Assembly (NCBI GenBank): GCA_011390635.1 | Contig: JAABSA010000014.1 | Span: 1 to 64,000 of the forward strand | DNA length: 64,000 nucleotides | From: Desulfotignum sp. | GTDB taxonomy: Bacteria > Desulfobacterota > Desulfobacteria > Desulfobacterales > Desulfobacteraceae | Direction of reading: 5' to 3' | Part shown: positions 6,567-57,784 of the stretch, in pieces | Layout: every line of letters begins with the position of its first letter | Position numbering within the stretch: position 1 is the first letter of the stretch | Made by a program: the position numbers and the translations under genes | The notes under the pieces: model-generated | What the model saw: only the letters and a program-made list of their open reading frames with translations | What the model was told of the DNA's origin: nothing | Databases searched by the model: none

Positions 6567-6595
6567 TTGACACGAACAGGGCAAGCAGGTAAGGT
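6567..6595 (+). promoter_or_regulatory. Promoter of the cobamide operon
   Basis: TTGACA at 6567-6572, a 17-nt spacer and TAAGGT at 6590-6595 place the transcription start near 6602, exactly at the 5' edge of the cobalamin riboswitch. The -35 is perfect and the -10 weak. Confidence 0.6.
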
Positions 6596-6601
6596 GTTCT
6601 A

Positions 6602-6766
6602 TTGTTTCAGGTGCTGCCCACGCAGTTAAAAGGGAATCCTGTGGAAGTCAGGAACGGACCCGCCGCTGTAGCCGGGGATGAACGCCACACAACCACTGAT
6701 GGGAAAAAGATCGGGAAGGAGTGGCTGGTAAATTGATCCGGGAGTCAGAAAACCTGCCTGAACAGT
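6602..6766 (+). promoter_or_regulatory. Adenosylcobalamin riboswitch (cobalamin aptamer)
   Basis: The leader carries the conserved core of the cobalamin aptamer: TTAAAAGGGAATCC at about 6626-6639, GCCGCTGTAGCC at about 6662-6673, the GGGATGAACGCC segment, and the B12 box GAGTCAGAAAACCTGCCTG at 6742-6760. A closing P1 stem can form between TGTTTCAGG at its start and CCTGAACA at its end. Such aptamers bind adenosylcobalamin and switch off downstream uptake and synthesis genes. The btuCDF-cbi operon follows directly, with an intrinsic terminator between aptamer and first gene. Confidence 0.93.
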
Positions 6767-6822
6767 TGATCGGTTGCTTGCGAGGACTTGGGTAGATCAA
6801 CGTTATGAGGATAAAAACGGTT

Positions 6823-6854
6823 CCCATATCAGCCTTGGCTGGTATGGGTTTTTT
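6823..6854 (+). terminator. Intrinsic terminator of the riboswitch expression platform
   Basis: CCCATATCAGCC (6823-6834) pairs with GGCTGGTATGGG (6837-6848) through 12 base pairs including one G-U, leaving a two-base TT apex that would open slightly in RNA. Six T residues follow at 6849-6854. It lies about 56 nt after the aptamer and 25 nt before the btuC start, so ligand-bound RNA would be expected to stop transcription here. This also rules out the apparent upstream start at 6774 for the permease. Confidence 0.88.
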
Positions 6855-6878
6855 AATGCCTTAACAACAGGGTGTCTC

Positions 6879-7928: not shown

Positions 7929-7938
7929 CAAGGATATC

Positions 7939-8715
7939 ATGGATATCAGCATGGACCATATACATTTTTTTCATGGGGAAACGTCGATTCTGGAAGATGT
8001 AACCTGCCGGTTTGCTCCCGGAAAATTCTATGCGGTTTTAGGCCCCAACGGCAGTGGCAAGACCACACTTCTCGACCTGATCTGCGGGTTTCGAAGACCG
8101 AAAACCGGCCGGATTTTGCTGGGAGACATGCCTGTAAACACTTTTTCCAGAAGAAAGATGGCCCAGACCATTTCCCTGGTATCCCAGAGTTATGAGGTGA
8201 ATTTTCCTTTCCTGGTGAAGGAGGTGGTCATGATGGGGCGCCACCCCCATGTTGACCGGTTTTCCCGGCCATCACAGGATGACCGAAAACTTGCTGCCCG
8301 GGTCATGGAAATGACCGGCATTTCCCACCTGGCGCACCGGCATATTACGGAATTATCCGGTGGAGAAAAACAGCGCTGCGTATTTGCCAGGGCCCTTTGC
8401 CAGGATACGCCTGTAATGCTGCTTGATGAAGCGTTTTCCAATATGGACATCCACCACAGTTTATATTTGCTGGGCCTGGTGAAAACCGCGGTGCTAAAAC
8501 AACACAAAACCGTCATTGCCGTGCTCCATGACATAAACCTGGCTGCCGGTTTTTCCCATGAGATGCTTTTTTTAAAACAAGGCAGGATCACTGCCATGGG
8601 TGACACACAAAAGGTGCTTACCCAAAAAAATATTGAGACTGTGTTTAATGTCACGTCCAAGGTGGAATACAATGACTATGTTCAGGCCTTACAAGTCTAT
8701 TTTAAACCATTATAA
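7939..8715 (+). CDS. btuD: Corrinoid ABC transporter ATP-binding protein
   Basis: This 258-residue ABC ATPase has Walker A GPNGSGKTT near residue 37, a Q-loop in SLVSQSYEV, signature LSGGEKQR near 140, Walker B VMLLDEAFSNMD near 160 and the switch His in VLHDINLA. It belongs to the FecE/BtuD subfamily that powers BtuC-type permeases from the cytoplasmic side. It lies between the permease and binding-protein genes with gaps of 10 and 4 nt, so the three should be one translational unit under riboswitch control. Nothing unusual is seen. Confidence 0.93.
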   Translation: MDISMDHIHFFHGETSILEDVTCRFAPGKFYAVLGPNGSGKTTLLDLICGFRRPKTGRILLGDMPVNTFSRRKMAQTISLVSQSYEVNFPFLVKEVVMMGRHPHVDRFSRPSQDDRKLAARVMEMTGISHLAHRHITELSGGEKQRCVFARALCQDTPVMLLDEAFSNMDIHHSLYLLGLVKTAVLKQHKTVIAVLHDINLAAGFSHEMLFLKQGRITAMGDTQKVLTQKNIETVFNVTSKVEYNDYVQALQVYFKPL

Positions 8716-8719
8716 GCAT

Positions 8720-9655
8720 ATGGCTCTGTTCAGACACCTGGTGTTGGTCCTGGTGTTTGCTGTCTTCGGGGCAGGGATATGTCTTGCAGGCACCCCTCCG
8801 GTCATCGTGGATGATAAAGGGCGGGTGATTCATGTGAAACAGCCGTTTAAACGGATCATTTCCCTCTACGGCGCCCATACGGAAAACCTTTTCCACCTGG
8901 GCCTGGAATCTGAAATAATCGGGGTATCTGTGAATGACACATTTCCACCCCAGGTGACGGACAAAAAAACATTTTCCTTTCATGATGATGCGGAAAAATT
9001 TGTGGCAGCCCGGCCGGACCTGGTATTGATCCGGCCCATGATCGACAATGGATATCCCAATTTTGTGCGCCAGCTGGAGCGGTACGGTATCACTGTGGTG
9101 TCTTTGCAGCCAGCTGATGTCACCAGCATGTTCGCTTACTGGCGGGATCTTGGCCGGCTCACCGGTCGGCTTGAAAGGGCTGAACAGCTGGTAGCGGATT
9201 TTCAGAAGAAAGTTGGTGTGATAGCCTCTTTTCTTCCCCCGGAAAAGCATCGCAAAAAAGTGTACTTTGAGGCCATCCACTCCCGCATGAAAACATTCAC
9301 CCATGGTTCCATGGCCATTTATGCCCTGGAAAGCGCAGGTGGTATCAATGCAGCGGCGGATGCCCCATCCTCCAGAAATACCAATATCGCCAATTACAGC
9401 AAAGAAAAAATCCTTTCAAAGGCCCATGAAATAGATGTGTTTCTTGCCCAGAAAGGAATCATGAACCCGGTTACCATTGAACAGATCCTCAATGAGCCCG
9501 GGTTTCACATTGTAAAGGCAGTAAAAAACAGCCAGGTATACCTGATAGATGAAAACATTGTCTCCCGACCGGTGCCCAGGCTGTTACAAGGAATTTTGGT
9601 CATCGGAAACCTGCTGTACCCAAAAATTTTCGCAACTTTGGAAAAGGACTTATAA
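8720..9655 (+). CDS. btuF: Corrinoid-binding periplasmic protein (BtuF-like)
   Basis: The start is ATG 8720, four bases after the ATPase stop; a longer reading from 8600 would overlap btuD by over 100 nt. The 311-residue protein has a hydrophobic signal segment (about residues 4-23, ending CLAG) with no clear lipobox, so it is likely free in the periplasm. It then shows the PBP2/BtuF pattern: DDKGRVIHVKQPFKRIISL, the LGLESEIIGVS segment, and the AARPDLVLIRP motif. It should deliver corrinoid to BtuCD. The TAATG overlap with cbiL ties uptake to synthesis. Siderophore or heme binding is the alternative, made unlikely by the context. Confidence 0.88.
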   Translation: MALFRHLVLVLVFAVFGAGICLAGTPPVIVDDKGRVIHVKQPFKRIISLYGAHTENLFHLGLESEIIGVSVNDTFPPQVTDKKTFSFHDDAEKFVAARPDLVLIRPMIDNGYPNFVRQLERYGITVVSLQPADVTSMFAYWRDLGRLTGRLERAEQLVADFQKKVGVIASFLPPEKHRKKVYFEAIHSRMKTFTHGSMAIYALESAGGINAAADAPSSRNTNIANYSKEKILSKAHEIDVFLAQKGIMNPVTIEQILNEPGFHIVKAVKNSQVYLIDENIVSRPVPRLLQGILVIGNLLYPKIFATLEKDL

Positions 9656-10359
9656 TGAAAAAAACGGGAAAATTATATGGGGTCGGAGTCGGACCCGGAG
9701 ATCCTGAACTGATCACGGTAAAAGCTGTCCGTGTGATAAAAGCGGCTGATATTATTTTTACGGCAGCTTCCAGCAAAAACAGCTACAGCCTGGCCGTGGA
9801 AATCGCCGGTCCCTATATTTCGGCATCCACCAGAATAAAAACCCTGGGATTTCCCATGACCAAAGAAGAAACCCAGGTGGAAACCGCCTGGATGAACAAT
9901 ACAAAAGAAATCGCACAGTCTCTGGAAAAAGGGCTTACCGTGGTTTTTCTGACCCTTGGAGATCCCATTACCTATTCCACCTTTGGATACATCCTCAAAA
10001 AAATGAAGCAGGTCATGCCCTTGGCTGAGATCGAAACCATCCCCGGCATCACCTCTTTTCATGCTGCATCAGCACGTCTCAACCGGATACTGGTGGAGGG
10101 AGAAGAATCTTTGCTGGTCACCTCAGGTGCTTTTGGCGGCAGCCAGATCCGCAATATACAGCAGGTGGAAAATATCGCCATTGTCAAGGCCTATAAAAAC
10201 ATCAAAGACATCAATTCTGCTTTAAAAGAAGCCGGCATGCACAAAAACGGAGTCGCTGTTTCCCACTGCGGCCGTAAAAAAGAAAAAATTTTTCATAATC
10301 TGGATGACCTTGAAACCCGGGCTCCGGATTACTGGACCCTGATTCTGGCCTCAAAATGA
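9655..10359 (+). CDS. cbiL: Cobalt-precorrin-2 C20-methyltransferase
   Basis: The 234-residue tetrapyrrole methylase begins with GKLYGVGVGPGDPELITVKAV, the family's N-terminal glycine loop, and carries FLTLGDPITYSTF (about residues 100-112) and IPGITSFHAASARL (about 128-141). These SAM-site motifs, together with the length, fit CbiL/CobI, which methylates C-20 of (cobalt-)precorrin-2 or factor II in the cytoplasm. The cobalt-dependent anaerobic substrate is inferred from cbiG later in the operon. Its ATG shares a base with the btuF stop and its own stop overlaps the next start by four bases. Confidence 0.9.
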   Translation: MKKTGKLYGVGVGPGDPELITVKAVRVIKAADIIFTAASSKNSYSLAVEIAGPYISASTRIKTLGFPMTKEETQVETAWMNNTKEIAQSLEKGLTVVFLTLGDPITYSTFGYILKKMKQVMPLAEIETIPGITSFHAASARLNRILVEGEESLLVTSGAFGGSQIRNIQQVENIAIVKAYKNIKDINSALKEAGMHKNGVAVSHCGRKKEKIFHNLDDLETRAPDYWTLILASK

Positions 10360-11411
10360 AACAACAAACCATCAGGCTCCGACTGCTGTTTATATCCGCT
10401 GCCCTGTCCGCTTTGCTGCCGGTTGTAAGCCATCTGTTCTTTTCTCCCGTTACCATTGATACCATGGTGAACCGGCTGGCCCTTCCCCTTGGACGTCTCA
10501 CCTGTTTTATCATTATAGGACTTGCGGCAGGCCAGATCATTGAGGGGTATGGCTGGACCCGGCAGGTCGCAGTGGTTGCCCGTCCATTCTTTCGCTTTTC
10601 CCGCATGGGAGACCTTTGCAGCGCCGCCTTTACAACCGCTTTTTTTTCCGGTGCTGCTGCCAACGCCATGCTCGCTGAGTTTTACGATCAGGCCAAAATT
10701 TCAAAGGCACAATTGTTCTTGTCCAATTATATCAACCAGTTTCCCGCTTTTTTTCTTCATCTTCCCACAACCGTCTTCATTGTTCTCCCCCTGACCGGTG
10801 TGGCAGGCGGGTTGTATTTTCTGCTCACATTTCTGGCTGTTCTGGTAAGAACCATTGCATTTTTGCTGTTTGGCCGCATCTATTTACAAAACCATTCTGT
10901 TTTGAAACCAGGTGCCCATTCCACCGAAACAGTAACACCTTCGCAAAAAAAATCGCTGTCCGATATCATCATTGCAATCAAAAACCGCCTTCCAGTGCGC
11001 GTGGTCAATATCTTTATTTGGGTGCTGCCCATCTACACACTGGTGTTTATTTTGCACTGGAATGGTGTTTTCGATATGGTCAATGCCGCCTTTTCAAGGC
11101 ATGTGGCCCTCAGCCTGATGCCTGTGGAATCTTTGTCAGTGGTAATTTTAAGCTTTGCCGCTGAATTCACCTCAGGCTTTGCCGCTGCAGGGGCACTCAT
11201 GGATGCCGGGGTGCTGACCATCAAACAGACCGTGCTGGCCCTTTTGCTGGGTAATGTGCTGGCTTTTCCCATCCGGGCACTGCGCCACCAGCTTCCCAGG
11301 TACCTTGGAATTTTTTCTCCCAAAATCGGGCTGCAACTGCTATTATCCGGCCAGGCCTTCAGAGTTGTCAGTATTATACTTATTGGAACCCTTTATTATC
11401 TGGTGGCATGA
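10356..11411 (+). CDS. GATE/nucleoside-recognition-domain membrane protein in the corrin operon
   Basis: This 351-residue integral membrane protein has about eight to nine hydrophobic segments. It shows the paired pattern of GATE (nucleoside recognition) domains: a first block around LGRLTCFIIIGLAAGQIIE with GDLCSAAFTTAFFSGAAANAML, and a second block around VVNIFIWVLPIYTLVF with SFAAEFTSGFAAAGALMDAG. Proteins with this fold include SpmA/SpmB and ferrous-iron-transporter gates; no substrate can be read from the sequence. It overlaps cbiL and cbiET by four bases each, so it is fully embedded in the cobamide operon. A role in cobalt or intermediate transport is my inference: no CbiMNQO cobalt importer occurs in the window. 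Confidence 0.8.
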   Translation: MKQQTIRLRLLFISAALSALLPVVSHLFFSPVTIDTMVNRLALPLGRLTCFIIIGLAAGQIIEGYGWTRQVAVVARPFFRFSRMGDLCSAAFTTAFFSGAAANAMLAEFYDQAKISKAQLFLSNYINQFPAFFLHLPTTVFIVLPLTGVAGGLYFLLTFLAVLVRTIAFLLFGRIYLQNHSVLKPGAHSTETVTPSQKKSLSDIIIAIKNRLPVRVVNIFIWVLPIYTLVFILHWNGVFDMVNAAFSRHVALSLMPVESLSVVILSFAAEFTSGFAAAGALMDAGVLTIKQTVLALLLGNVLAFPIRALRHQLPRYLGIFSPKIGLQLLLSGQAFRVVSIILIGTLYYLVA

Positions 11412-12724
11412 TGAACCCCATACACATTATCGGCATAGGCCGGGGAAAAGCGGATCTGACCCGACAGCATCTGGATATCATTGAGAAAGCGGATGTACTG
11501 GTGGGGGGCGAACGCCTCTTGCAACTGTTTGCTGATCACACCGGAGAAACCCTTGTCATTGACCGGCGAATCGATGTGGTAATGCAAAAGATAAAAGACT
11601 TCATGACCGACCGGCAGGTGGTGGTGCTGGCATCGGGAGATCCTTTATTCTACGGCATCGGTTCCACCCTGCTGAATCATTTCGACAAAAAAGATCTCCG
11701 GATATATCCCAATATTTGCTGTGTTTCAGCAGCCTTTGCCGCCATTAAAGAACCCTGGCATGATGCACGTATAATCAGTTTTCACAGCAACTCTGTACCT
11801 GATTTCTCATTTGCCGATCTGGCTTTTGAAACCAAAGTCGCCTTTTTAACAAATCCGAAAAAAGATCCCGGTTTTATCGCCAGACGTCTCATGGATACAG
11901 GGGTGGACGGATTTCAATTCTGCGTACTTGAAAATATCGGATATACACCACACCAGAAAATTACCTGGTTTGATTCCTATACCGATGTTATGACCACCTC
12001 CTTTTCCCGCCCCAATATGGTTATTCTCCTAAAAGACGGGAATACGGTAACAGATGTTGCACATGAAACGCCTGGCAGCGGAGCAGGAAAAAGACCGGGA
12101 AACCCGAATGCGGTAACAGATGTTGCACATGAAATCCACCTGGGCATGGATGATGATCGGTTTCACCACGCCAAAGGATTGATTACCAAATCTGAAATCC
12201 GCAGCATCAGTCTTTCCCGGTTGAAACTGGTGAAAAAAGACCATGTGCTGTGGGATATTGGATCAGGCTCCGGATCGGTCAGCATGGAAGCAGCCCTGTC
12301 AATCCCCCTGGGAAAAGTGTTTGCCATTGAAAAAAACAAAGAACGCACAAAGGATATCACCCATAATATCAAAAAATTCCGGTGTTCCAATGTTCAGGTG
12401 GTGCTCCTGGATTTTCCCGATGGTGCACAGTCCCTGCCTTCACCCGACCGGATTTTTGTGGGGGGCGGGGGCAAAAATCTTGATGCTGTTCTTGATGCAG
12501 CCTGTGACCATCTCATTGAAACCGGTATCATAGTTATTAACACCGTGGTGATCCAGAACATGGAGCGGGCCTTTACCTGCCTGGAACAAAAACTGTTTGC
12601 CCCCGAGATGGTGCAGGTGCAGATATCGCGTTCCCGGGCCATGCCTTCCGGGACCCGGCTTGAATCATTAAACCCGGTGTGGATAATTTTCGGCACCAAA
12701 CCCTGTCATAAGGATTTTTCATGA
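11408..12724 (+). CDS. cbiET: Fused cobalt-precorrin-6/7 methyltransferase-decarboxylase (CbiE-CbiT, CobL type)
   Basis: This is a 438-residue fusion. The N-terminal part (about 1-200) is a CbiE tetrapyrrole methylase with HIIGIGRGKADLT and VVVLASGDPLFYGIGS. The C-terminal part (about 255-438) is a CbiT Rossmann methyltransferase with TKSEIRSISLSRLKL, LWDIGSGSGSVSMEAA and RIFVGGGGKNLD. Together these methylate C-5 and C-15 and decarboxylate the C-12 acetate. The order matches CobL. The linker between them (about 212-250) contains a partial internal duplication, NAVTDVAHE repeated after 22 codons. The start overlaps the membrane protein gene by four bases; ATG 11411 is an equally possible start one codon later. 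Confidence 0.92.
   Translation: MMNPIHIIGIGRGKADLTRQHLDIIEKADVLVGGERLLQLFADHTGETLVIDRRIDVVMQKIKDFMTDRQVVVLASGDPLFYGIGSTLLNHFDKKDLRIYPNICCVSAAFAAIKEPWHDARIISFHSNSVPDFSFADLAFETKVAFLTNPKKDPGFIARRLMDTGVDGFQFCVLENIGYTPHQKITWFDSYTDVMTTSFSRPNMVILLKDGNTVTDVAHETPGSGAGKRPGNPNAVTDVAHEIHLGMDDDRFHHAKGLITKSEIRSISLSRLKLVKKDHVLWDIGSGSGSVSMEAALSIPLGKVFAIEKNKERTKDITHNIKKFRCSNVQVVLLDFPDGAQSLPSPDRIFVGGGGKNLDAVLDAACDHLIETGIIVINTVVIQNMERAFTCLEQKLFAPEMVQVQISRSRAMPSGTRLESLNPVWIIFGTKPCHKDFS
12041..12134 (+). repeat. Direct repeat inside the cbiE-cbiT linker
   Basis: Two 28-nt copies at 12041-12068 and 12107-12134 differ at one base. Their starts are 66 nt apart, so the duplication keeps frame. They encode near-identical short peptides (VTDVAHE) in the interdomain linker. 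This looks like a local in-frame duplication event, not a mobile element. Confidence 0.85.
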
Positions 12725-13506
12725 ATACCTCTTTTTATCCTGTCATTTTTGCAGGTGCCGGACCAGGAGATCCCGACCTGATCACGGTCAAAGCTATGAA
12801 GGCCCTGGCAAAGGCAGATATGGTCATCTATGCCGGATCTCTGGTACCCGAGGCAGTACTCTGCTGGAAAGGGCCCCGGACCCGGACCATTTCCAGTGCC
12901 GGCATGACGCTTGTGGAAATCATTGAGACCATCTCCACCAATTACCGGGCGGGAAAGCGGGTGGTCCGCCTTCATACAGGAGACCCTTCGCTGTATGGTG
13001 CCATTTTTGAGCAGATCCGGGAACTGGAAAAAGAAGATATTCCGTTTGCGGTCATCCCGGGTGTCACTGCAGCCTTTGCAGCGGCTGCTGCCATGCATAT
13101 GGAATACACCCTGCCGGAGATAGCACAGACCCTGATTTTGACACGGATTTCCGGTCGGACCCCGGTTCCGGATACGGAGAATCTGGCAAACCTGGCAGCC
13201 CACCAGGCATCCATGGCCATTTATCTGAGCATCGGACATGCCACAAAAGTGCAGAAAATACTGCAAACCCATTACGGCAAAAATGCATACTGTGCCATTG
13301 CCTACAAGGTCAGCCATCCGGAAGAGAAAATTGTTTACTGCAGGATAAAGGAACTGGACCAGACCTGCCGGGAAAACAACATTACCCGCCATGCCCTTAT
13401 CATTGTGGGCAAAGCAGTGGAGGCCTGTATGAAACATCAGGACCAGATTGTTTCCAAACTCTATGATTCCGGGTTTTCCCATGGCTATCGCACCAATGCC
13501 CGATAA
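12721..13506 (+). CDS. cbiF: Cobalt-precorrin-4 C11-methyltransferase
   Basis: The 261-residue protein has the full set of CbiF/CobM motifs: IFAGAGPGDPDLITVKA, VIYAGSLVPEAVL, SAGMTLVEII, VVRLHTGDPSLYGAIFEQ, VIPGVTAAFAAAAA and LILTRISGRTPVP. It transfers a methyl from SAM to C-11 of (cobalt-)precorrin-4. The AGSLVPE and TRISGRTPVP segments separate it from CbiL and CbiH. The start overlaps the cbiET stop by four bases (ATGA), giving translational coupling. Confidence 0.95.
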   Translation: MNTSFYPVIFAGAGPGDPDLITVKAMKALAKADMVIYAGSLVPEAVLCWKGPRTRTISSAGMTLVEIIETISTNYRAGKRVVRLHTGDPSLYGAIFEQIRELEKEDIPFAVIPGVTAAFAAAAAMHMEYTLPEIAQTLILTRISGRTPVPDTENLANLAAHQASMAIYLSIGHATKVQKILQTHYGKNAYCAIAYKVSHPEEKIVYCRIKELDQTCRENNITRHALIIVGKAVEACMKHQDQIVSKLYDSGFSHGYRTNAR

Positions 13507-14611
13507 GCTGCCAGCCAATGCCTCTCTGGCAGTGTGGGCCTTGACCCCCAATGGAAAACTGCTTGGGGAAAAACTATGCTGTCATTTGAAACAGGCCCGT
13601 TTGTTTATCAGTTCACGCCTGGGCAAAGGCGTTCATATCCCAACAGCTGCTGCTGAACCAGGAACCGGCAGTATATGCAAAAACACTCCCTTATGTGACA
13701 ATCTCGTGATATTTCAGAAACTTTCGGAAGCGGTTTCAGAACAGTTTCACGCCTATGAGTGCCATGTGTTTATTTTTTCCACCGGTATTGCGGTGCGGAT
13801 ACTGGCACCGCTGCTGGTGTCAAAACTTACGGATCCAGCCGTGGTGGTCCTGGATGACCACGGGCTGCATGCCATCAGCCTGATATCCGGACATATCGGT
13901 CAGGCCAACACCTATACCCGGCACATTGCCCGATTGCTCAAGGCAGATCCAGTGATTACCACGGCAACGGATGTGAACGACCTGCCGGCCATAGATCTGC
14001 TGGCAGAAAACATGGGGATGTTCATCGAAACCCCTGATGCCATAAAAATCATCAACATGGCATTTCTCCAGCACTGCAAAATCCGTCTCCAGGACCCGTT
14101 ACATCTGCTCGGCCCCTGGATTCCACGGGATCTGATCGACCATACCTCCCAACAGGGACCGACCGTGGTGTGCGACTGGAAAACAAGAAAGGTTTCACGT
14201 GAAACCCTGGTGCTTCGACCCAGGATTCTGGTGGTGGGAATCGGGTGCAACCGGAACACCCCGTTTGAAAGGATCCACAACTTTTTTACAACAACCCTGG
14301 AAACCGCCGGCATCAGCGTACACGCAGTTGCAGCCCTGGCCACAACAGACCTAAAACAGGACGAGGCAGGCATTCTGGCATTGGCAGCACATATAAACAT
14401 TCCTGTTCGGTTTTATGACAAAACCGCACTTTCATCGGTAAAAACCATCCAGACCCCGTCCAGAATGGTTGAAAAACATTTAGGAGTAAAAAGCGTATGC
14501 GAAGCAGCAGCAATACTGGCATCCAACAACGGCACCCTGATCCTTCCCAAGAAGAAAAACCAGGATGTAACCCTGGCTGTGGCCCTTCACAAAACCGGCT
14601 CTTTGTTGTAG
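13481..14611 (+). CDS. cbiG: Cobalt-precorrin-5A hydrolase
   Basis: The chosen start, ATG 13481, overlaps cbiF by 26 nt and gives 376 residues; ATG 13496 (MPDKLPAN) is a close alternative, and neither has a strong ribosome binding site. CbiG features: VWALTPNGKLLGEKL at the N-terminus, IFSTGIAVRILAPLL with VVVLDDHGLHAISLISGHIG in the central domain, and the C-terminal domain with RPRILVVGIGCNRNTP and VCEAAAILASNNGTLILPK. CbiG opens the delta-lactone of cobalt-precorrin-5A and releases acetaldehyde, a step unique to the anaerobic pathway. Its final 115 nt overlap cbiH. Confidence 0.93.
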   Translation: MAIAPMPDKLPANASLAVWALTPNGKLLGEKLCCHLKQARLFISSRLGKGVHIPTAAAEPGTGSICKNTPLCDNLVIFQKLSEAVSEQFHAYECHVFIFSTGIAVRILAPLLVSKLTDPAVVVLDDHGLHAISLISGHIGQANTYTRHIARLLKADPVITTATDVNDLPAIDLLAENMGMFIETPDAIKIINMAFLQHCKIRLQDPLHLLGPWIPRDLIDHTSQQGPTVVCDWKTRKVSRETLVLRPRILVVGIGCNRNTPFERIHNFFTTTLETAGISVHAVAALATTDLKQDEAGILALAAHINIPVRFYDKTALSSVKTIQTPSRMVEKHLGVKSVCEAAAILASNNGTLILPKKKNQDVTLAVALHKTGSLL

Positions 14612-15408
14612 GTACCGGGCCGGGCCATGTGAAACACATGTCCCAGAGGGCCATGGAGGTTATTGCCGCAGCAGACTGTATTGCCGGATACACCACCTAC
14701 ATTGATTTGATCCGGGAACTGGTGACCGGCCAAAAAATCATTTCCACCGGTATGATGAAAGAGGTGGAACGGGTGGATCGGGCCATTCAGGAAGCATTAT
14801 CCGGCCGGTCCTGTGCCCTGGTTTCCGGTGGCGACCCCGGCATATATGCCATGGCGGGACTGGTCTTTGAAATCTGCCACAAAAAAAACATCCAGATATC
14901 CAGGCCCTCTGGAAAAAAGGCGGAACCAGGGCCGCACCCCTGCCTGGAACTGGAAATCGTGCCGGGAATCCCCGCACTTGCAGCCGGGGCTGCCATTGCC
15001 GGGGCGCCCTTGACCCATGATTTTGCCACTATTTCATTAAGTGATCTTCTGACAAGCTGGGAGGTTATAGAACAGCGTGTGACCAGCGCTGCCATGGCGG
15101 ATTTTGTCATAGTCCTTTACAATCCCAAAAGCAAAAAACGGGACTGGCAGCTCCAGCGCACCCAGGAACTGATCCTGCACTACCGTAAAGGCAGTACACC
15201 GGTTGCAATTGTCACAGGGGCCATGCGGGATAACCAGAAAATCGAATTCACCCGTCTGGATACACTGCACATGGCGGATGTGGGAATGCAGACGGTACTG
15301 TTCATCGGGTCCAGTGCATCAGTTCATTATATGGACTTTATATACACACCCAGGGGGTATACCGGCAAATACGCTGTTTCTCCGGAAGCACCAGCAGCTA
15401 TATCGTGA
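14497..15408 (+). CDS. cbiH: Cobalt-precorrin-3B C17-methyltransferase
   Basis: The methylase core starts at about residue 34 (RLFVVGTGPGHVKHM) and includes GYTTYIDLI, SGGDPGIYAMAGLVFE, VPGIPALAAGAAIAGAPL, DFATISLSDLLT and DFVIVLYNPKSKKR, all typical of CbiH/CobJ. These contract the ring and methylate C-17. No ATG, GTG or TTG occurs in frame between 14497 and the core, and TAGGAG lies 10 nt upstream of ATG 14497. The first 33 residues, low in conserved features, are therefore probably real and are encoded out of frame within the conserved 3' end of cbiG, a 115-nt overlap. Total length is 303 residues. Confidence 0.9.
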   Translation: MRSSSNTGIQQRHPDPSQEEKPGCNPGCGPSQNRLFVVGTGPGHVKHMSQRAMEVIAAADCIAGYTTYIDLIRELVTGQKIISTGMMKEVERVDRAIQEALSGRSCALVSGGDPGIYAMAGLVFEICHKKNIQISRPSGKKAEPGPHPCLELEIVPGIPALAAGAAIAGAPLTHDFATISLSDLLTSWEVIEQRVTSAAMADFVIVLYNPKSKKRDWQLQRTQELILHYRKGSTPVAIVTGAMRDNQKIEFTRLDTLHMADVGMQTVLFIGSSASVHYMDFIYTPRGYTGKYAVSPEAPAAIS

Positions 15409-15418
15409 AGGAGTCGAC

Positions 15419-15931
15419 ATGAAAGGATATGTTCAGATTTACACAGGAAACGGAAAAGGGAAAACTACCGCAAGTTTAGGGCTGGCCCTTCGGGGTGCCG
15501 GGGCAGGCTTGCGGGTTTTTGTGGGCCAGTTTCTCAAGCAGGGAAATTATTCTGAAATAAACGCGTTAGCCAGGTTTAAAAATGTCACGGTGGAACAATA
15601 CGGCATGGGAAAATTTGTCAAAGGTGTTCCCTCAAACGAAGAAAAAGCCGCAGCCCGTGATGGATATGCCAGGTTGTGTGACATTCTGGCAACGGGTACC
15701 TACGACCTGGTCATCGTGGATGAAGGCAATGTAGCAGTGACCTGCAATCTTATTTCAGAGGCGGAACTGCTGGATCTTATCGACCAAAAGCCCGACACCG
15801 TGGAACTGGTGATAACCGGCAGGGGGGCCCTTCCATCTGTGGTGGACCGTGCAGATCTGGTCACTGAAATGCTGGACATCAAACACTATTTTCGACAGGG
15901 TGTAACCGCCCGAAAAGGTATTGAAAAATGA
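15419..15931 (+). CDS. cobO: ATP:corrinoid adenosyltransferase
   Basis: The start is ATG 15419, seven bases after a GAAGGAG ribosome binding site; longer upstream readings lie in cbiH. The 170-residue protein has the P-loop TGNGKGKTTASLGLALRG at residues 8-25, the Walker-B-like DLVIVDEGN, and LVITGRGALPSVVDRADLVTEM near the C-terminus. These are the markers of the CobA/CobO/BtuR family, which transfers the adenosyl group of ATP to the cobalt of corrinoids in the cytoplasm. The stop overlaps the cbiP start by four bases. Confidence 0.95.
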   Translation: MKGYVQIYTGNGKGKTTASLGLALRGAGAGLRVFVGQFLKQGNYSEINALARFKNVTVEQYGMGKFVKGVPSNEEKAAARDGYARLCDILATGTYDLVIVDEGNVAVTCNLISEAELLDLIDQKPDTVELVITGRGALPSVVDRADLVTEMLDIKHYFRQGVTARKGIEK

Positions 15932-17394
15932 AAAAGCAGCATATTGCCGTGCTGGGCACGGGATCAGATGTGGGAAAAAGCATAGTGGCCGCCGGTATCT
16001 GCCGATACCTGGCAGATCAGGGACAAAAGGTGGCGCCCTTCAAGGCCCAGAACATGTCCAACAATTCAGGTATTACACCGGAGGGTCTGGAAATGGGCAG
16101 GGCGCAGATTGTCCAGGCAGAAGCCGCCCGCATCGCTCCCCATGTGCAGATGAATCCCATCCTTTTAAAGCCTTTTGGAGAAAAACAATCCCAGGTGGTC
16201 TTGAACGGAACGGTTCACGGTAACCACACTGCCATGGATTATCACCGCCACAAAGCGTTTTATTTTGAGAAAGCCTGCCAGGCATTTGACCAATTGTCTG
16301 ACAGATTTGACCGTATTATCATGGAAGGGGCCGGTTCCTGTGCAGAAGTGAATCTCATGGATACGGATATCGTTAATTTTCCCATGGCACGGTATGCGGA
16401 TGCCCATGTGATTTTAACGGCTGACATCCACCGGGGCGGTGTTTTTGCACAGATCATCGGCACCTTGGCCTGTCTGCCGGACCACTACAAAGACATGGTA
16501 AAAGGCATTATTATCAACCGTTTCAGGGGCGACATTGCCTTGTTTGCAGAAGGTGTGGATTGGATTGAACGCGAAACCGGCAAAAAAGTACTGGGGGTAT
16601 TGCCCTGGTATTCCCATTTTAAAATCGATGCAGAAGATTCGGTTGAAATTGAAAATTACAATGATTTCAAATGGTTAAATAAAAATTTTCCAGCTGTTGG
16701 CATTTTGCGCCTGCCCCATATCGCCAATTTTACAGATTTTCATCCCCTTGCCAGGATAAAATCGTTGCAAACGGTTTTTATAGACGGACCTGAAAATCTG
16801 GACAGATTTGATGCCGTTATCATTCCGGGAACCAAAAACACAAGAAAAGATCTTCAATGGGTGACAAACCGGTTTGAAAATGCCTTGAAATCATATGTTC
16901 GAAATGGTGGCCATATTTTAGGAATATGCGGGGGATACCAGATGCTGGGGGATTTTGTAGCAGACCCGGAAGGGCTTGAAGGCGCCCCCGGTCGGACACG
17001 GGGACTAGGATTGCTGCCGGTTGAAACCATTTTGAAATCTCCCAAAACCACCACCTTGAGCGAATTTGAATGGGATGGAAAAAAAGGCAGGGGCTATGAA
17101 ATACACATGGGGGCCACCAGCTTGGCAGCCGGCGAACCATTTGTCCATATCTGTTCCAGAAACACGGTTGTCGTAGCAGAGACAGATGGATGCATGGCAT
17201 TGGGCGGTCAGGTGGCCGGCACCTATATTCACGGATTTTTCGATGCAGGCGCCATTACCGAAAAATGGCTTTCAATGATCGGTCTGGATCCTGTACCGGT
17301 GATTGAAACAGACATGGCGGCTGAAAAAGACAAAGACTATGACCGGCTGAAAGTGCATATGGAAAGGTATCTGGATCTGGGTTCCATCCGATAA
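15928..17394 (+). CDS. cbiP: Cobyric acid synthase (adenosylcobyric acid amidase)
   Basis: This 488-residue enzyme has the N-terminal ATP-binding domain of the dethiobiotin-synthetase type (LGTGSDVGKSIVAAGICR, PFKAQNMSNNSG, VMEGAGSCAEVNL as IIMEGAGSC). The C-terminal class-I-like glutamine amidotransferase domain follows, with GTKNTRKD, nucleophile Cys in HILGICGGYQMLG and the C-terminal His in TYIHGFFD. It amidates the b, d, e and g side chains of adenosylcobyrinic acid diamide. It is the last gene of the 10.5-kb riboswitch operon; cbiA, normally its partner, is not in the window. Confidence 0.96.
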   Translation: MKKQHIAVLGTGSDVGKSIVAAGICRYLADQGQKVAPFKAQNMSNNSGITPEGLEMGRAQIVQAEAARIAPHVQMNPILLKPFGEKQSQVVLNGTVHGNHTAMDYHRHKAFYFEKACQAFDQLSDRFDRIIMEGAGSCAEVNLMDTDIVNFPMARYADAHVILTADIHRGGVFAQIIGTLACLPDHYKDMVKGIIINRFRGDIALFAEGVDWIERETGKKVLGVLPWYSHFKIDAEDSVEIENYNDFKWLNKNFPAVGILRLPHIANFTDFHPLARIKSLQTVFIDGPENLDRFDAVIIPGTKNTRKDLQWVTNRFENALKSYVRNGGHILGICGGYQMLGDFVADPEGLEGAPGRTRGLGLLPVETILKSPKTTTLSEFEWDGKKGRGYEIHMGATSLAAGEPFVHICSRNTVVVAETDGCMALGGQVAGTYIHGFFDAGAITEKWLSMIGLDPVPVIETDMAAEKDKDYDRLKVHMERYLDLGSIR

Positions 17395-52461: not shown

Positions 52462-53259
52462 TCAAGCAGGCAAATGGGACGGTATATCATCGAACATATC
52501 AGACAGCACTGTCAAAGACCGGTTCAGGTCTTCCCGGTTAAACACCTCCAGGCTCACAGTTCCCCCATAGCCCTGCAACAGTTTGCGCACACGGTCCATA
52601 TCACCGGGGTTCAGCCGGTCCAGGCTGGTATGGTCCTTGATCCCCAAGCCTGAGCAGGTTACGCCATGAAGATGAACCAACGCCAGACGGTCCTGGAAAA
52701 TTTCAAAACTGTGTGCAGGATCATACCCATACCGGAAATGATGGCCGAGATCAATGCAGACCGTAAGATCATGGGCTGCCAGCAAAGGGATCAGACAGTG
52801 AGGGGGATAGTCCAGAGTTTCCACGGACAAGATTCCGGGGCCGGGCAGATGGGGCATCAGCCGGTTCAAACCGTCCAGGGCCCGGTCCTGCCAGGCTGTC
52901 ACACCGTCAAGATATTGCGGTTGCACCATTTCCAGGTGAAGGGTATGGGTGGAGGGGGACAACGGTTCACACAATGCCACCACCCGTGCAATGGTATCAG
53001 CGGCTTTTTGACGATGGTGCGGTGCACCATGGGTAAGGCTGACATCTGTGGGCAGATGAATATTATACCCGACATCCAGATCACGTGACAATGCGGCCAG
53101 TTCAGCAATCTCTGCTTTTTTGGGCAGCACGGTTTCAGGAATGCTTTCAAAAACAAGGAGTTCTATTTCATCAAACAATGCACCTGTTTTGCGGACATTG
53201 GGAAGAATATGGTCCGGATAGATAAATGAGGTGGTGCCTAATCGAAACAATCTTTTCAT
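52462..53259 (-). CDS. cbiR: Cobamide remodelling phosphodiesterase (CbiR family)
   Basis: The start is ATG 53259 (MKRLFRLGTTSFIYPDHILPNVR), giving 265 residues. The sequence is an AP-endonuclease/xylose-isomerase-like TIM barrel with metal-ligand candidates in order: NIHLPTD, LHLEMVQP, LSVETLDYP, CIDLGHHFRYGYD, LVHLHGVT with DHTSLD, and VSLEVFNRE. The only cobamide enzyme of this fold that I know is CbiR, which hydrolyses the nucleotide loop of cobamides to release AdoCbi-phosphate for remodelling. It lies four bases from cbiB, last in the nucleotide-loop operon, which strongly supports this. An unrelated sugar isomerase is the alternative. Confidence 0.8.
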   Translation of the reverse strand: MKRLFRLGTTSFIYPDHILPNVRKTGALFDEIELLVFESIPETVLPKKAEIAELAALSRDLDVGYNIHLPTDVSLTHGAPHHRQKAADTIARVVALCEPLSPSTHTLHLEMVQPQYLDGVTAWQDRALDGLNRLMPHLPGPGILSVETLDYPPHCLIPLLAAHDLTVCIDLGHHFRYGYDPAHSFEIFQDRLALVHLHGVTCSGLGIKDHTSLDRLNPGDMDRVRKLLQGYGGTVSLEVFNREDLNRSLTVLSDMFDDIPSHLPA

Positions 53260-53263
53260 GATC

Positions 53264-54232
53264 TTATCCCGCCCCTGCAACCTGTTTCAGGACTGCCAGT
53301 GACATGGCTGCCAGAAGCCCTGTCACTGCAGCTGTCTGCATCAGCCCGCAGGCCTGATCAATGGCGGCTATTTTTGGATCATCAAAAACAGCCCCGATAT
53401 AGGGCTTGTCCACCTGTCTGCCATGGTAGATGCCGGGTCCCCCCAGGCGGATGCCCAGGGCACCGGCAAAGGCTGCCTCGGGAAATCCCGCGTTGGGACT
53501 CTTGTGCAGCCGGCCCTGGGAAAATCCAATTTTCAACGCCCTGCTGCTGGATGCCGGGGGAACACAAACGGCAGCGGCCGCTATCACCAAAACAGCCAGC
53601 CGGGCCGGAATAAAATTGGCGGCATCATCAATGCGGGCAGATGCTCTGCCAAACAATATATAGGTATCATTTTGATATCCCACCATGGAATCCAGGGTAT
53701 TGACCATTTTATAGGCAACCGCCCCGGGAACCCCCAGCACCAGTGCCCAGAAAAGCGGGGATAAAAACCCGTCCACAAAATTTTCCGCCACCGTCTCGAC
53801 CGTGGCACGGGTCACACCCGGTAGATCCAGTGTCTGCGTTTCTCTGCCCACAATCATGGATACCTTTTGCCTGGCTGCTTGCACATCTTTCGCCTCCAGG
53901 GGCCGGGCGACGGCCAAGGCTGCATCTTTCAAACTTTTGACCGAAAAACAATAAAACAGCAGTACCACCTGGATACCCAGACCCAGAAACGGATGCATCC
54001 AACCGGCTGCCCAAATCAGTATCAGGGCCAGAAAATAGGTGGTGCAGATCAGAAAAACGGCAAAAAACACCCCGGCTGCAAACGGCTTGCAAAAAAACTG
54101 TCTGAAAAATCCTTCCAAAAAAGCAATGGCCCTGCCCATGTATACCACCGGATGGGGCAGCCGGCAGGGGTCCCCCAGGACAAAATCCAGGACAAATGCT
54201 GCCGGCAGGATATACCAGGCTGCTTCAATCAT
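53264..54232 (-). CDS. cbiB: Adenosylcobinamide-phosphate synthase (CbiB/CobD)
   Basis: ATG 54232 (MIEAAWYILPAAFVLDFVLGDP) overlaps the preceding gene by eight bases and is preferred to GTG 54244; the length is 322 residues. Family features: DFVLGDPCRLPHPVVYMGRAI at the N-terminus, VGRETQTLDLPGVTRATVETVAENFVDGFLSPLFW, KMVNTLDSMVGYQNDTYILFGRASAR and AGALGIRLGGPGIYHG. There are several TM segments. It attaches aminopropanol (or its phosphate) to adenosylcobyric acid at the membrane. Confidence 0.95.
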   Translation of the reverse strand: MIEAAWYILPAAFVLDFVLGDPCRLPHPVVYMGRAIAFLEGFFRQFFCKPFAAGVFFAVFLICTTYFLALILIWAAGWMHPFLGLGIQVVLLFYCFSVKSLKDAALAVARPLEAKDVQAARQKVSMIVGRETQTLDLPGVTRATVETVAENFVDGFLSPLFWALVLGVPGAVAYKMVNTLDSMVGYQNDTYILFGRASARIDDAANFIPARLAVLVIAAAAVCVPPASSSRALKIGFSQGRLHKSPNAGFPEAAFAGALGIRLGGPGIYHGRQVDKPYIGAVFDDPKIAAIDQACGLMQTAAVTGLLAAMSLAVLKQVAGAG

Positions 54233-55307
54233 GGGCCAGGGCACGTTGTATACTGGATGCCAGTTTCATATTGGTATCCCGGTCCTTGAGGGAAAACCGC
54301 ACAAACCCGGGGGAGAGGCCTGTAAAATTGGAACAATCCCGGATCAGCAGCCGGTCCTGCCCCACCTGTCGGCATAGGTGTGCAGCGGTGTGGTGCAAAA
54401 GTTCTGCCAGAATAAAACAGGTGTGACCCTGTACCGGCACAATGCCTTGCAGTCGGGCAATGGCATCCAGAAATACCTGCTTTTCTGCGGCAATATAGGC
54501 CCGGGTTTTTTCATAAAAAGGCGCGATCTGATCCGGATGATCAAAAATGTCTCTGATCACAATCTGGGCCAGGGAATTGACACTCCAGGGCTGGTAATAG
54601 GCCATAACCCGGTCGATCAATGGCTTTGCACCGCTTAAAAACCCGGTGCGCAGCCCGGGAATGGTAAAAATTTTGGACATGGAGGACAGCACCAGCAGGT
54701 TGGCAAATGCGGTATCATGGATAAGGGAAATCTCGCCGGCTCTTTCCACAAAGGGAAGATAGGATTCATCCACCACAAAACACACATGGGGATTATGTTC
54801 CACAAGGGTTGTAATGAACTCTTTTTCCACAAGGACACCGGTGGGGTTGTTGGGGTTGCAGATAAAAACAATATCTGCTTTGGCCGACATCTCTGATACT
54901 GCTTCCAGGTCGGGCAAAAAACCATCTTCCGCCCTGGAATTCCAGTGGACAGGCGCTATGTTATTCATGTGGCAGGCATCGGCGTAATCAGAATAGGTGG
55001 GTCCCAGGATCAGCACGTTTGCCGCTTGCAGGGCCCTGGGAATGGTGTAGATAAACCAGGTGGTGCCATTGCCGGCGATAACACAGGCCGGATCGATGTC
55101 ATGGTACCGGGCAAATGCATTTGTCATGGACCGTGCATCCGGCTCGGGAAGGCAATGGATGGCAGACAGGTTCTCCAGTAAAACATTTTTGATACGTTCC
55201 GGCGGTCCCAGGGGATTGAGGTTTGCGCTCATGTCGGTGATGTCATATACAGAACACCCCAGTTCCTCCGCCAAACCTGTTTTGTTGCCGCCATGGCCGA
55301 TAATCAT
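54225..55307 (-). CDS. cobD: L-threonine-O-3-phosphate decarboxylase
   Basis: This 360-residue fold-type I PLP enzyme is of the histidinol-phosphate aminotransferase-like group: ANLNPLGPPERI near the start, GNGTTWFIYTIPRA, ADIVFICNPNNPTGVLV, VDESYLPF and the PLP lysine in LSSMSKIFTIPGLRTGF. Flanked by cobS and cbiB, it is assigned as threonine-phosphate decarboxylase (CobD/CobC), supplying aminopropanol phosphate. HisC activity is unlikely given the location and the GHGGN start typical of CobD. Confidence 0.93.
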   Translation of the reverse strand: MIIGHGGNKTGLAEELGCSVYDITDMSANLNPLGPPERIKNVLLENLSAIHCLPEPDARSMTNAFARYHDIDPACVIAGNGTTWFIYTIPRALQAANVLILGPTYSDYADACHMNNIAPVHWNSRAEDGFLPDLEAVSEMSAKADIVFICNPNNPTGVLVEKEFITTLVEHNPHVCFVVDESYLPFVERAGEISLIHDTAFANLLVLSSMSKIFTIPGLRTGFLSGAKPLIDRVMAYYQPWSVNSLAQIVIRDIFDHPDQIAPFYEKTRAYIAAEKQVFLDAIARLQGIVPVQGHTCFILAELLHHTAAHLCRQVGQDRLLIRDCSNFTGLSPGFVRFSLKDRDTNMKLASSIQRALAHD

Positions 55308-55322
55308 GATACAATCCTTATT

Positions 55323-56090
55323 TTACACAAGAGCCGCACCGCAGGCGAGAAACAAAATGGCTTCCAGCATTTCTGTCATGGCACCCAGCATATCTCCTGT
55401 GATGCAGTTCATTTTTTTTTTATAAAACCATAACATTCCAAAACAGGTAACCGCAAATACCAGATTCAGAACCAGGCCGTTATAGCCTAAAAACAGGGAT
55501 AAACACAAGGGGATCAGGCAATAGATAAAATCTTTTGTACCCAAAGGGGAGGCAAACAGGTCCAGTCCTGTGCCGGTCTCTTTTCGGCCATAGTGCAGAA
55601 ACCGGATGCCGAAAATCATGGATGCCCTGGCATAGGCCGGCACCAGCATCAGGATCAGCAGGCTTTGGAAGATATCAAAACTGGTTTTGACAGCATAAAT
55701 GCCGGCCAGCTTTACGGCCAGCACACAGACCACGGCCACAAGTCCCATCATGCCGGTGCGGCTGTCTTTCATGATTTCCAGGGCCTTTTCTCTGGATCGG
55801 TGGCTGAAAATCCCGTCCGCCGTGTCTCCCAAGCCATCCAGGTGAAACGCCCCTGTCAAAATCACCAGACAGAGCAGGTCCATAAGCGCTGCCACGGGCG
55901 TGGGCCACAGCCTGGAAGCCACAAGATCCACCAGTACCATCAGACTGCCCAGGATCAATCCCACCACCGGAAAAAAACGGATCATACCCATGGGAGAGTA
56001 GGCCACATTGCGGCCAGCCGGCAGAATCGTTATAAACAAAATACAGGACCGCAGGTCCGTGAAAAACCCGCTTGTTCCGGAAGGGGTCAT
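55323..56090 (-). CDS. cobS: Cobalamin-5'-phosphate synthase
   Basis: ATG 56090 overlaps the radical SAM stop by four bases (ATGA); starts further upstream would lie within that gene. The 255-residue membrane protein has the CobS signature TGAFHLDGLGDTADGIFSH with MKDSRTGMMG. Several TM helices lie around it. It joins AdoCbi-GDP to the alpha-ribazole phosphate base at the inner membrane. A short unusual feature is a second Met-rich start region, MTPSGTSGFF. Confidence 0.95.
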   Translation of the reverse strand: MTPSGTSGFFTDLRSCILFITILPAGRNVAYSPMGMIRFFPVVGLILGSLMVLVDLVASRLWPTPVAALMDLLCLVILTGAFHLDGLGDTADGIFSHRSREKALEIMKDSRTGMMGLVAVVCVLAVKLAGIYAVKTSFDIFQSLLILMLVPAYARASMIFGIRFLHYGRKETGTGLDLFASPLGTKDFIYCLIPLCLSLFLGYNGLVLNLVFAVTCFGMLWFYKKKMNCITGDMLGAMTEMLEAILFLACGAALV

Positions 56091-57031
56091 GTCTGCCCTT
56101 TCACGGTGAAAAAAAACTCTCCCCTGGCTTCCTGCCGGGATGTTATGCATCCCTTTGCCGTTAAATCGGCCAGCAGTTTTTTTACTTCTTGTTTGTGCAA
56201 CCCCAGGACAGCAGCCAGATCTTCTCTGGTGCAGGGCCTGCGGTGTATGGTTTCCAAAATTGCTGCCCCCGGATCCTGTGCCTGCCGTTTCCGGGTCCCG
56301 GTGCCGGCCCGGGCAATGATCTCCACGTTATTTTCATCCAGGAGTGTAATCACCCGTTCCAACTCCTCTGGCGCAGCCGGCCTGAGAGTGGAAACCGTAC
56401 CCGGCCGATCCAGGGTGTTGAGCTGAACCTTCTGAGGCTTTATCTTTCTGATGGCTGTCTTCAGCAATGTCAATTCTTTTTGGGTGTCATTTATCCCGGG
56501 CAGCACAAATATTTCCAGCCAGACATTACCTGAAAACTGCTTTGTAAAATCAGCAATACCATCAATAATCTCTGTCGGTTGAATGCCGGCACAGGGCCGG
56601 TTGATGTCGTAAAAGGTCTTGGGAAATACCGCATCCACAGAAGGCACAACCAGATCGGCCAGGGCAAGTTCAGCCCGTACGGCAGGATCACTCATCAAAG
56701 TGGCATTGGTGAGTACCGCCACCTGTATCCCGGGCTTTTTTTCTTTAATATGGGCAATCACCTGTCCAAGACCCAGATTCAGCGTGGGTTCTCCTGATCC
56801 GGAAAAGGTGATATAATCCGGATCATCATTATGGGCCCAATAATGGTCCAGTTCCCGGCACACATCCTCACAGGAAACATATTGTCTGCGCTCTTTTGTC
56901 AGGTCGGTGGTTTCGCCGCATTCGCAGTACACACAGTTCATGCTGCAGATTTTGTGGGTGACCAGGTCCACTCCCAGAGAAACCCCCAGCCGCCGGGACC
57001 GAACCGGCCCGAATAAATGCCGATATTGCAT
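56087..57031 (-). CDS. Radical SAM protein with C-terminal winged helix, in the cob operon
   Basis: The 314-residue protein has the radical SAM motif CSMNCVYCECG near residues 30-40, the GSGEPTLNLG motif II near 75, and VLTNATLM, VPSVDA and FVLPGIND along the barrel. After about residue 235 a small winged-helix-like domain follows (REDLAAVLGLHKQEVKKLLADLTAKGCI). The N-terminal FGPVRSRRLGVSLGVDL matches a family of radical SAM proteins of unknown reaction often near molybdopterin or cobamide genes. It sits between cobU (3-nt gap) and cobS (4-nt overlap). Its function is not known to me. Confidence 0.88.
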   Translation of the reverse strand: MQYRHLFGPVRSRRLGVSLGVDLVTHKICSMNCVYCECGETTDLTKERRQYVSCEDVCRELDHYWAHNDDPDYITFSGSGEPTLNLGLGQVIAHIKEKKPGIQVAVLTNATLMSDPAVRAELALADLVVPSVDAVFPKTFYDINRPCAGIQPTEIIDGIADFTKQFSGNVWLEIFVLPGINDTQKELTLLKTAIRKIKPQKVQLNTLDRPGTVSTLRPAAPEELERVITLLDENNVEIIARAGTGTRKRQAQDPGAAILETIHRRPCTREDLAAVLGLHKQEVKKLLADLTAKGCITSRQEARGEFFFTVKGQT

Positions 57032-57034
57032 GGT

Positions 57035-57574
57035 CTACCCTCCTGGCTTTATTTGCACGGCAATGCCGGCCACGGTGAGCACCACCCTGTCAGCTGCTTT
57101 TGCCATTTGCTGATTCACCAGTCCGGCCATATCCCGGAACCGGCGGGCCAGACTGTTTTCCGGTACGATCCCATACCCCACTTCGTTGGTGACCAGAAAC
57201 ACCGGACAACGGGTCTGGCAAAGGGCATGGGTGGTATGGTCCAACCATTTTTGAACAGCGGCTTCATCCATTTTTCCCATCAGCATATTTGAGGTCCACA
57301 GGGTCAAGCAGTCCACAAGGATCACATCGGCCGTGTGCCCATGGGATGCAATTTTTTCATGGATATTCACCGGCTCCTCAATGGTCTGCCAGTCCGATCC
57401 GCGTTCTGCCTGGTGGGATTGCACCCGTTTTTCCATTTCCGGGTCCTCTGGCACGGATGTGGCCAGAAAAATCTTTCGGCTGCCGGGAACGGCATTGGCC
57501 GCATCCAGGGCATACCGACTCTTGCCGCTTCTGCAGCCGCCGATGATAAGGGTAATGGGATGTTTATCTGCCAC
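57035..57574 (-). CDS. cobU: Adenosylcobinamide kinase/adenosylcobinamide-phosphate guanylyltransferase
   Basis: The 179-residue protein has the P-loop IIGGCRSGKSRYAL at residues 10-23, the guanylylation-site region RVQSHQAERGSDWQTIEEP, and LVDCLTLWTSNMLMG with VTNEVGYGIVPENSLARRFRDMAGLVNQ. CobU phosphorylates adenosylcobinamide and transfers GMP to it. It is the first gene of cobU-rSAM-cobS-cobD-cbiB-cbiR. No cobalamin riboswitch was recognised in the 210 nt upstream of it. Confidence 0.96.
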   Translation of the reverse strand: MADKHPITLIIGGCRSGKSRYALDAANAVPGSRKIFLATSVPEDPEMEKRVQSHQAERGSDWQTIEEPVNIHEKIASHGHTADVILVDCLTLWTSNMLMGKMDEAAVQKWLDHTTHALCQTRCPVFLVTNEVGYGIVPENSLARRFRDMAGLVNQQMAKAADRVVLTVAGIAVQIKPGG

Positions 57575-57784
57575 GGTTTGTTTTGGTTCCTTATGTTTTG
57601 CATATGGTTACATCAGGCTAAAATACCGTATCCACGGACCAAGATGCAACCCTAAAAAGATACGACCGGGATATTTACAGCAAACATTCAGATACGAAAT
57701 TTGGGGTTTACAATCCATTGCGTTTACTGTAGAGAATGAGAATCCATTCATTGTATGATGCTTTATGGTGTAAAGGAGGCAGGT

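Follow-up and report, generated by a model that had tools for sequence, protein, structure and literature searches.

The described system closest to the one treated here is CbiR of Akkermansia muciniphila (Amuc_1679; NCBIfam model NF041277), a cobamide phosphodiesterase whose published activity yields adenosylcobinamide phosphate (AdoCbi-P) (PMC7733943). The family is described as hydrolysing adenosylcobalamin to AdoCbi-P and alpha-ribazole, and as oxygen-sensitive, dependent on dithiothreitol and blocked by ethylenediaminetetraacetic acid; alanine mutants of the A. muciniphila enzyme at certain residues lost activity. CbiR occurs in each of the 75 A. muciniphila strains examined, and 26 of them have the de novo pathway; 282 homologues are reported from 276 other taxa, 80% of them adjoining cobamide genes, and cbiZ accompanies cbiR in nearly 20% of the taxa (PMC7733943). 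CbiZ (PF01955) is similar to CbiR in that it also starts cobamide remodelling, but it belongs to another family and cuts an amide bond. It is not the product of the gene described here. That gene lies at positions 52462–53259 on the minus strand of a 64,000-nucleotide stretch of Desulfotignum sp. DNA (the window), as the last gene of a nucleotide-loop operon (52462–57574). Based on its sequence, it very probably encodes a CbiR-family cobamide phosphodiesterase, the activity being predicted. The window belongs to contig C11 (87,527 bases) of a 4.09-Mb assembly (the own genome, G000), which is 96.4% complete.

The product of the gene scores 255.1 bits against NF041277, whose curated cut-off of 105 bits is used throughout to call cbiR present. 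It also matches PF01261 (AP-endonuclease-2; 57.7 bits, cut-off 31.1). NF041277 has two further matches in the own genome, at 61.2 and 25.8 bits. Of 14 control genomes, 11 show weak matches and none has a protein over the cut-off. These scores indicate that the model tells CbiR apart from its paralogues. Named genomes were scanned and yielded 110 relatives, from which the best 80 loci were retained, with at least one genome contributing two loci. The closest relatives among these loci are Desulfotignum metagenome-assembled genomes (63–73% identity), and the named isolates include Desulfospira joergensenii and Desulfobacter vibrioformis. Six loci were lost when complete proteins of suitable length were selected, leaving 74 usable proteins. 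The window protein was aligned with 50 of them. Across the 51 sequences, no variation is seen at H68, H108, E147, D170, H173, H196, H210, and E238, and D209 is almost invariant, which agrees with the string of His/Glu/Asp metal-ligand candidates seen in the first-pass annotation of this DNA. E33 and E38 are likewise invariant. The CbiR assignment made in that annotation is upheld by the model score, the operon context, and these conserved candidate residues.

The most likely start of cbiR, judged from the sequence, is the ATG at 53259, which gives 265 aa, and not the TTG at 53280 of the open reading frame (ORF) list. Three cbiR copies of the same genus are also 265 aa when read from their first start codon. 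In a further set, all six copies have this length, with starts chosen to fit the query.

The operon runs from 57574 to 52462 in the order cobU, a radical S-adenosylmethionine (radical-SAM) gene, cobS, cobD, cbiB, and cbiR (Table 1). The genes are separated by gaps of 3–15 bases or overlap by 4–20 bases, and the gap between cbiB and cbiR is 4 bases. All five genes first named here (cobU, cobS, cobD, cbiB, and a CbiR-type gene) were correctly placed and oriented, and the radical-SAM gene between cobU and cobS had been overlooked. The most likely start of cobS is the ATG at 56090, overlapping the stop codon of the radical-SAM gene. A radical-SAM homologue is seen near cbiR in 24 of the 80 loci, and none is present at that place in three genomes of the same genus (G062, G070, and G073). 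A promoter and terminator scan gave near-chance results for this operon (9 found against a mean of 5.8; 10 found against a mean of 6.9) and was not used.

Table 1. Coordinates of the cobamide-related features of the window, with the models that match them.
Feature	Position	Strand	Evidence
Cobalamin riboswitch before the btuCDF-cbi operon	6592..6775	+	RF00174 105.4 bits
btuC-, btuD-, and btuF-like ABC uptake genes	6774..9655	+	BtuC, heme/corrinoid ATPase, and periplasmic-binding families, all below equivalog cut-offs; last PF01497 69 bits
Corrin operon: cbiL, 351-aa membrane ORF, cbiET, cbiF, cbiG, cbiH, cobA, cbiP	9655..17394	+	NCBIfam and Pfam models
cbiR, predicted cobamide phosphodiesterase, 265 aa, last operon gene	52462..53259	-	NF041277 255.1 bits; PF01261 57.7 bits
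cbiB, adenosylcobinamide-phosphate synthase	53264..54244	-	PF03186 346.6 bits; TIGR00380 245.2 bits, cut-off 165.9
cobD, threonine-phosphate decarboxylase-like aminotransferase	54225..55307	-	Best NCBIfam TIGR01140 269.1 bits, below cut-off 290.55; gene context
cobS, adenosylcobinamide-GDP ribazoletransferase	55323..56090	-	PF02654 158.3 bits, cut-off 23.2; TIGR00317 109.3 bits, just under cut-off 110
Radical-SAM protein, winged-helix C-terminus	56087..57031	-	PF04055 60.6 bits; PF12802 33.9 bits
cobU, AdoCbi kinase / AdoCbi-P guanylyltransferase, first operon gene, GTG start	57035..57574	-	PF02283 195.9 bits; NF004469 188.3 bits, cut-off 161

The metal site of CbiR, on an AP-endonuclease-2 triosephosphate isomerase (TIM) barrel, would hydrolyse adenosylated or methylated cobamides at their phosphoribosyl bond. 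The products would be the lower ligand as its free alpha-riboside and AdoCbi-P (or its methylated counterpart, MeCbi-P). CbiB and CobD would supply AdoCbi-P from cobyric acid, and CbiR would return it from finished cobamides. CobU and CobS would then add back a ligand that CobT, encoded at another place in the genome, has activated. As AdoCbi-P is the product of CbiB, a substrate of CobU, and the predicted product of CbiR, the operon would hold both arms of a lower-ligand exchange cycle. Family-model identity, gene order, residue conservation, predicted fold, and presence in relatives are direct results of the analysis, and from these we infer the activity of CbiR, its substrate range, and the ligand attached.

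The window protein resembles A. muciniphila CbiR in scoring over the cut-off of the family model, in the AP-endonuclease-2 TIM barrel and its conserved His/Asp/Glu residues, and in the position of its gene beside cobD, cbiB, cobS, and cobU. Judged from its relatives, the host is a Desulfotignum-like sulfate reducer in the Desulfobacteraceae, and it differs from the Akkermansia type strain in having most of the corrin pathway. Unlike in the Akkermansia system, a radical-SAM gene is inside the operon and cobT is outside it. The window gene is a further member of the known CbiR family, and its combination with corrin synthesis is already in print for Akkermansia.

In the relatives, at least one of cobU, cobS, cobD, and cbiB is present on the cbiR strand within 10 kb in 60 of the 80 loci. 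cbiB is directly upstream of cbiR in 44 loci, and cobU and cobS are both nearby in 41. A corrin (cbi) gene is seen within 10 kb of cbiR in 9 of the 80 loci, two of which have cbiET, cbiF, cbiG, cbiH, and cbiP together. Two genomes rated 100% complete, G023 (L151) and G029 (L152), have these five genes clustered and no CbiD match genome-wide. Downstream of the operon, ispG and proS follow in seven loci titled Desulfotignum, and relA in the six of these extending far enough.

Co-occurrence of cbiR and corrin synthesis was counted in 86 Desulfobacteraceae genomes and, across the phylum, in a sample of 296 genomes that are at least 90% complete. In the family, 75 of the 86 genomes have cbiR over the cut-off. 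This count is used in place of a tally of "42 of 42", which was set aside as it includes weak paralogues below the cut-off. cbiD is present in 59 of the 75 cbiR genomes, and cobT and cbiD are both present in 56. Of the 45 family genomes with a completeness of at least 95%, cbiR is present in 44 and is accompanied by cbiD in 37. In the phylum sample, cbiR is found in 56 genomes, cbiD in 149, and both in 29. cbiD is thus seen in 29 of 56 cbiR genomes versus 120 of 240 others (Fisher odds ratio 1.07, p 0.88), indicating that in this sample cbiR tracks cbiD in neither direction. The presence of cbiR together with B12-making genes is common in the relatives, not exceptional. De novo synthesis and CbiR in one genome had been considered noteworthy in the first-pass annotation; this claim of novelty fails because de novo Akkermansia strains with cbiR are described in PMC7733943 and cbiR with cbiD is common in the Desulfobacteraceae. 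The accompanying statement that Akkermansia cannot make cobamides de novo applies to the type strain, which is without the corrin pathway, and does not apply to the 26 other strains that have it (PMC7733943).

Two alternative readings concern the use of CbiR. Both are compatible with its identity, and the confidences in them and in the identity therefore do not sum to one. The first, which we consider unlikely, is that CbiR is a housekeeping editor removing wrong lower ligands from the cell's own cobamides, with imports mostly handled by a BtuF-CbiZ protein at uptake. The near-universal presence of cbiR in the family, above all in the most complete genomes, and its equal frequency with and without cbiD across the phylum sample point in this direction. 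So does its position with assembly genes, without an uptake-type cobalamin riboswitch where scanned. No Rfam match (E up to 1) was found at 57400–58650, upstream of the cbiR operon, and none of the cbiR loci of 13 relatives scanned has a cobalamin riboswitch anywhere. In the own genome, the riboswitch-bearing loci are the uptake operon, a locus of a TonB receptor and btuF-cbiZ, and cobT. This pattern fits CbiR being made alongside the assembly enzymes. On the other hand, CbiZ is present in only 52 of the 86 family genomes (51 have both cbiR and cbiZ), and such a division of labour between editing and uptake therefore cannot be general. Ordinary remodelling of imported cobamides also explains the same facts.

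The BtuF-CbiZ protein of the own genome (L159:5098–7131, on contig C79) has 677 aa, with an N-terminal BtuF-like part (PF01497) and a CbiZ part (PF01955). By eye, its N-terminus is signal-peptide-like. The gene is downstream of a TonB-dependent receptor and a cobalamin riboswitch. From its domain arrangement, this fusion would put remodelling at uptake. In G062 (L160), a btuF-cbiZ gene is followed by btuF-, btuC-, and btuD-like genes. No such fusion was found in passages of PMC3541065, PMC8620254, PMC4285132, PMC8269236, and PMC11697101, and we do not claim that it is unreported. Two adjacent CbiK-like cobalt chelatase genes (L159:547–2463; PF06180, 235.3 and 107.2 bits) are located on C79 as well. 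They lie upstream of the TonB receptor gene and btuF-cbiZ and are encoded by the opposite strand.

The second reading, which seems distinctly unlikely, is that CbiR mainly salvages imported cobamides in a strain that has truly lost cbiC, cbiD, and cbiA and has no corrin synthesis of its own. Most of the corrin pathway and BtuCDF are in the window, as first annotated, behind the cobalamin riboswitch, with the BtuCDF-like genes below equivalog cut-offs. The anaerobic-route genes found are cbiL, cbiH, cbiF, cbiG, cbiET, cbiP, cobA, cbiB, cobD, cobU, and cobS. In the corrin operon, TIGR01467, TIGR02467/TIGR02469, TIGR01465, TIGR01466, and NF001989 match over their cut-offs. cbiG is below the cut-off of NF004466 (266.7 bits, cut-off 326) and over the Pfam cut-off of PF01890 (134.6 bits), and cobA is below that of NF004637 (174.9 bits, cut-off 185). 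No match to cbiC or cbiD was found in the window or in the whole assembly, and cbiA is not among the genes of the corrin operon. The GATase_3 matches in the own genome are CbiP, a protein on contig C50, and a weak match of 27.1 bits. The C50 protein, a candidate for CbiA, was set aside as a probable DsrN from its neighbours, which we take to be dsrAB. The weak match presumably is HisH. These two probable identities, the missing cbiC and cbiD, the BtuCDF-like genes in the window, and the TonB receptor with the BtuF-CbiZ fusion elsewhere are all in line with a salvager. Seven cbiR genomes of the Desulfobacteraceae are without both cbiG and cbiD, and these may be salvagers.

Against a loss, the remainder of the corrin operon is intact. 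In G062, of the same genus, cbiC and cbiD are within the corresponding operon. G068 has the gene order of the window's corrin operon without cbiC and cbiD, and it keeps cbiC-cbiA-cbiD at 287.2–290.5 kb of the contig that also carries cbiR, approximately 41 kb beyond that gene. C11 is collinear with G068 to the right end of C11, save for one unmatched ORF (84739–85914). This end corresponds to approximately 279.4 kb in G068. Since G068 has the cluster about 8 kb beyond the matching end of C11, an assembly gap is likelier than a true loss. When the own genome was searched with a 14-kb G068 query spanning cbiC-cbiA-cbiD, the matches were limited to short ABC-ATPase stretches among the 40 of 120 candidate places scored, as expected of a missing piece. 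Most corrin genes are present as proposed, but that the cell makes its own cobamide stays unproven, since the assembly contains neither cbiC nor cbiD.

The corrin operon also contains a 351-aa ORF (10356–11411) between cbiL and cbiET, encoding a hydrophobic, probably polytopic membrane protein. It has no Pfam match and a weak NCBIfam match, below the cut-off, to PRK10519. The corrin operons of G062, G068, and G014 contain homologues of it. This ORF was considered as a replacement of CbiD, as it adjoins cbiET where G062 has cbiD, and was rejected since G062 and G014 have both.

For the lower ligand, a look for genes nearby had been proposed. cobT is present elsewhere in the genome, at C7:70697–71704, with a cobalamin riboswitch just upstream (L051:9829–9996). 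No gene of the ThiC/BzaA/BzaB/BzaF type was found: PF01964 has no match in the own genome at its 96.4% completeness, while 13 of the 14 control genomes match. Many CobT matches in the family are located in an open frame of approximately 700 aa. In G047 (L037:1468–3588), a 706-aa fusion comprises an alcohol-dehydrogenase-like part (PF08240) and CobT (PF02277).

The identity of the last gene remains to be weighed against its superfamily. An AlphaFold2 model of the window protein is a (beta/alpha)8 TIM barrel (predicted local distance difference test 95.7, predicted template modelling score 0.92). Together with the PF01261 match, it confirms the AP-endonuclease-like barrel proposed in the first-pass annotation. 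Several observations weigh against the CbiR identification. The membership of the window protein is judged by the family model. In 20 of the 80 loci, none of the four nucleotide-loop genes is on the same strand within 10 kb, a figure that partly reflects contig ends and BLAST sensitivity. In the fold comparison, sugar epimerases are on top (3wqo, Z 24.0, among the matches listed). In a tree including E. coli Nfo (endonuclease IV), Nfo has a very long branch and is placed among the CbiR proteins.

The fold lists include D-tagatose-3-epimerase-like proteins and endonuclease IV, both of the same superfamily as the window protein. Endonuclease IV is close behind the epimerases (2x7v, Z 22.0, within approximately 2 Z of the best), and the best 50 matches listed range only from Z 24.0 to 20.9. 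Because epimerases and endonuclease IV are nearly tied, the fold supports the superfamily and not the function, and structure was dropped as a discriminator between CbiR and sugar epimerases. A sequence search of solved structures gave weak matches only (three with E of 1 or less, the best 0.032). Profile comparison of CbiR gave a probability of 82% for E. coli Nfo versus 2.6% for UlaE and 0.5% for Hyi. The profile alignment pairs D179 and H182 of Nfo, which we take to be zinc ligands, with D170 and H173 of CbiR. Endonuclease IV shares superfamily and fold with the window CbiR, but it acts on DNA, and the identity to the E. coli enzyme in structural alignments is 16–18%.

Of the 74 usable proteins, 24 entered the trees, together with the window protein and five or six outgroup rows, several of them long-branched; the trees had no Akkermansia row. 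The tree with Nfo was rejected for its branch length of 10 and its position inside the CbiR set, and was rebuilt without it. In the rebuilt tree, a moderately supported branch (90/90, 92% of 200 bootstrap trees) sets the 25 CbiR rows apart from the five others, namely three paralogues and two sugar isomerases/epimerases of E. coli. A grouping with sugar isomerases, named at the outset as the finding that would speak against CbiR, is not seen in the tree once Nfo is dropped. As structure did not discriminate and the separation in the tree depends on leaving out Nfo, this check is only partly decisive. That the gene encodes a sugar isomerase/epimerase or another AP-endonuclease-2 enzyme merely sitting in the operon is very improbable: the top fold matches suit it, but the fold is undiscriminating, the NF041277 score is more than twice the cut-off, cbiB is so often directly upstream of cbiR, and the sugar isomerases are separated in the Nfo-free tree.

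CbiR is not just a tool of salvagers, as most cbiR genomes in the Desulfobacteraceae also carry cbiD. The main interest of the locus is in the question of editing and in the BtuF-CbiZ fusion. PMC7733943 raises the question of how cells protect their cofactor against a promiscuous cobamide hydrolase of their own, for which the named isolates could serve. It can be speculated, though doubtfully, that CbiR of the Desulfobacteraceae is a near-universal, operon-fixed editor in cobamide producers, produced along with CobU and CobS and, in the loci scanned, free of cobalamin riboswitch control. It would continuously strip and re-attach lower ligands, with the pool set by the selectivity of CobT and CobS, and many species would have a second remodelling enzyme at uptake, the CbiZ fused to BtuF. 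If such continuous editing occurs, the cobamide pool would not be set by what is first made or imported.

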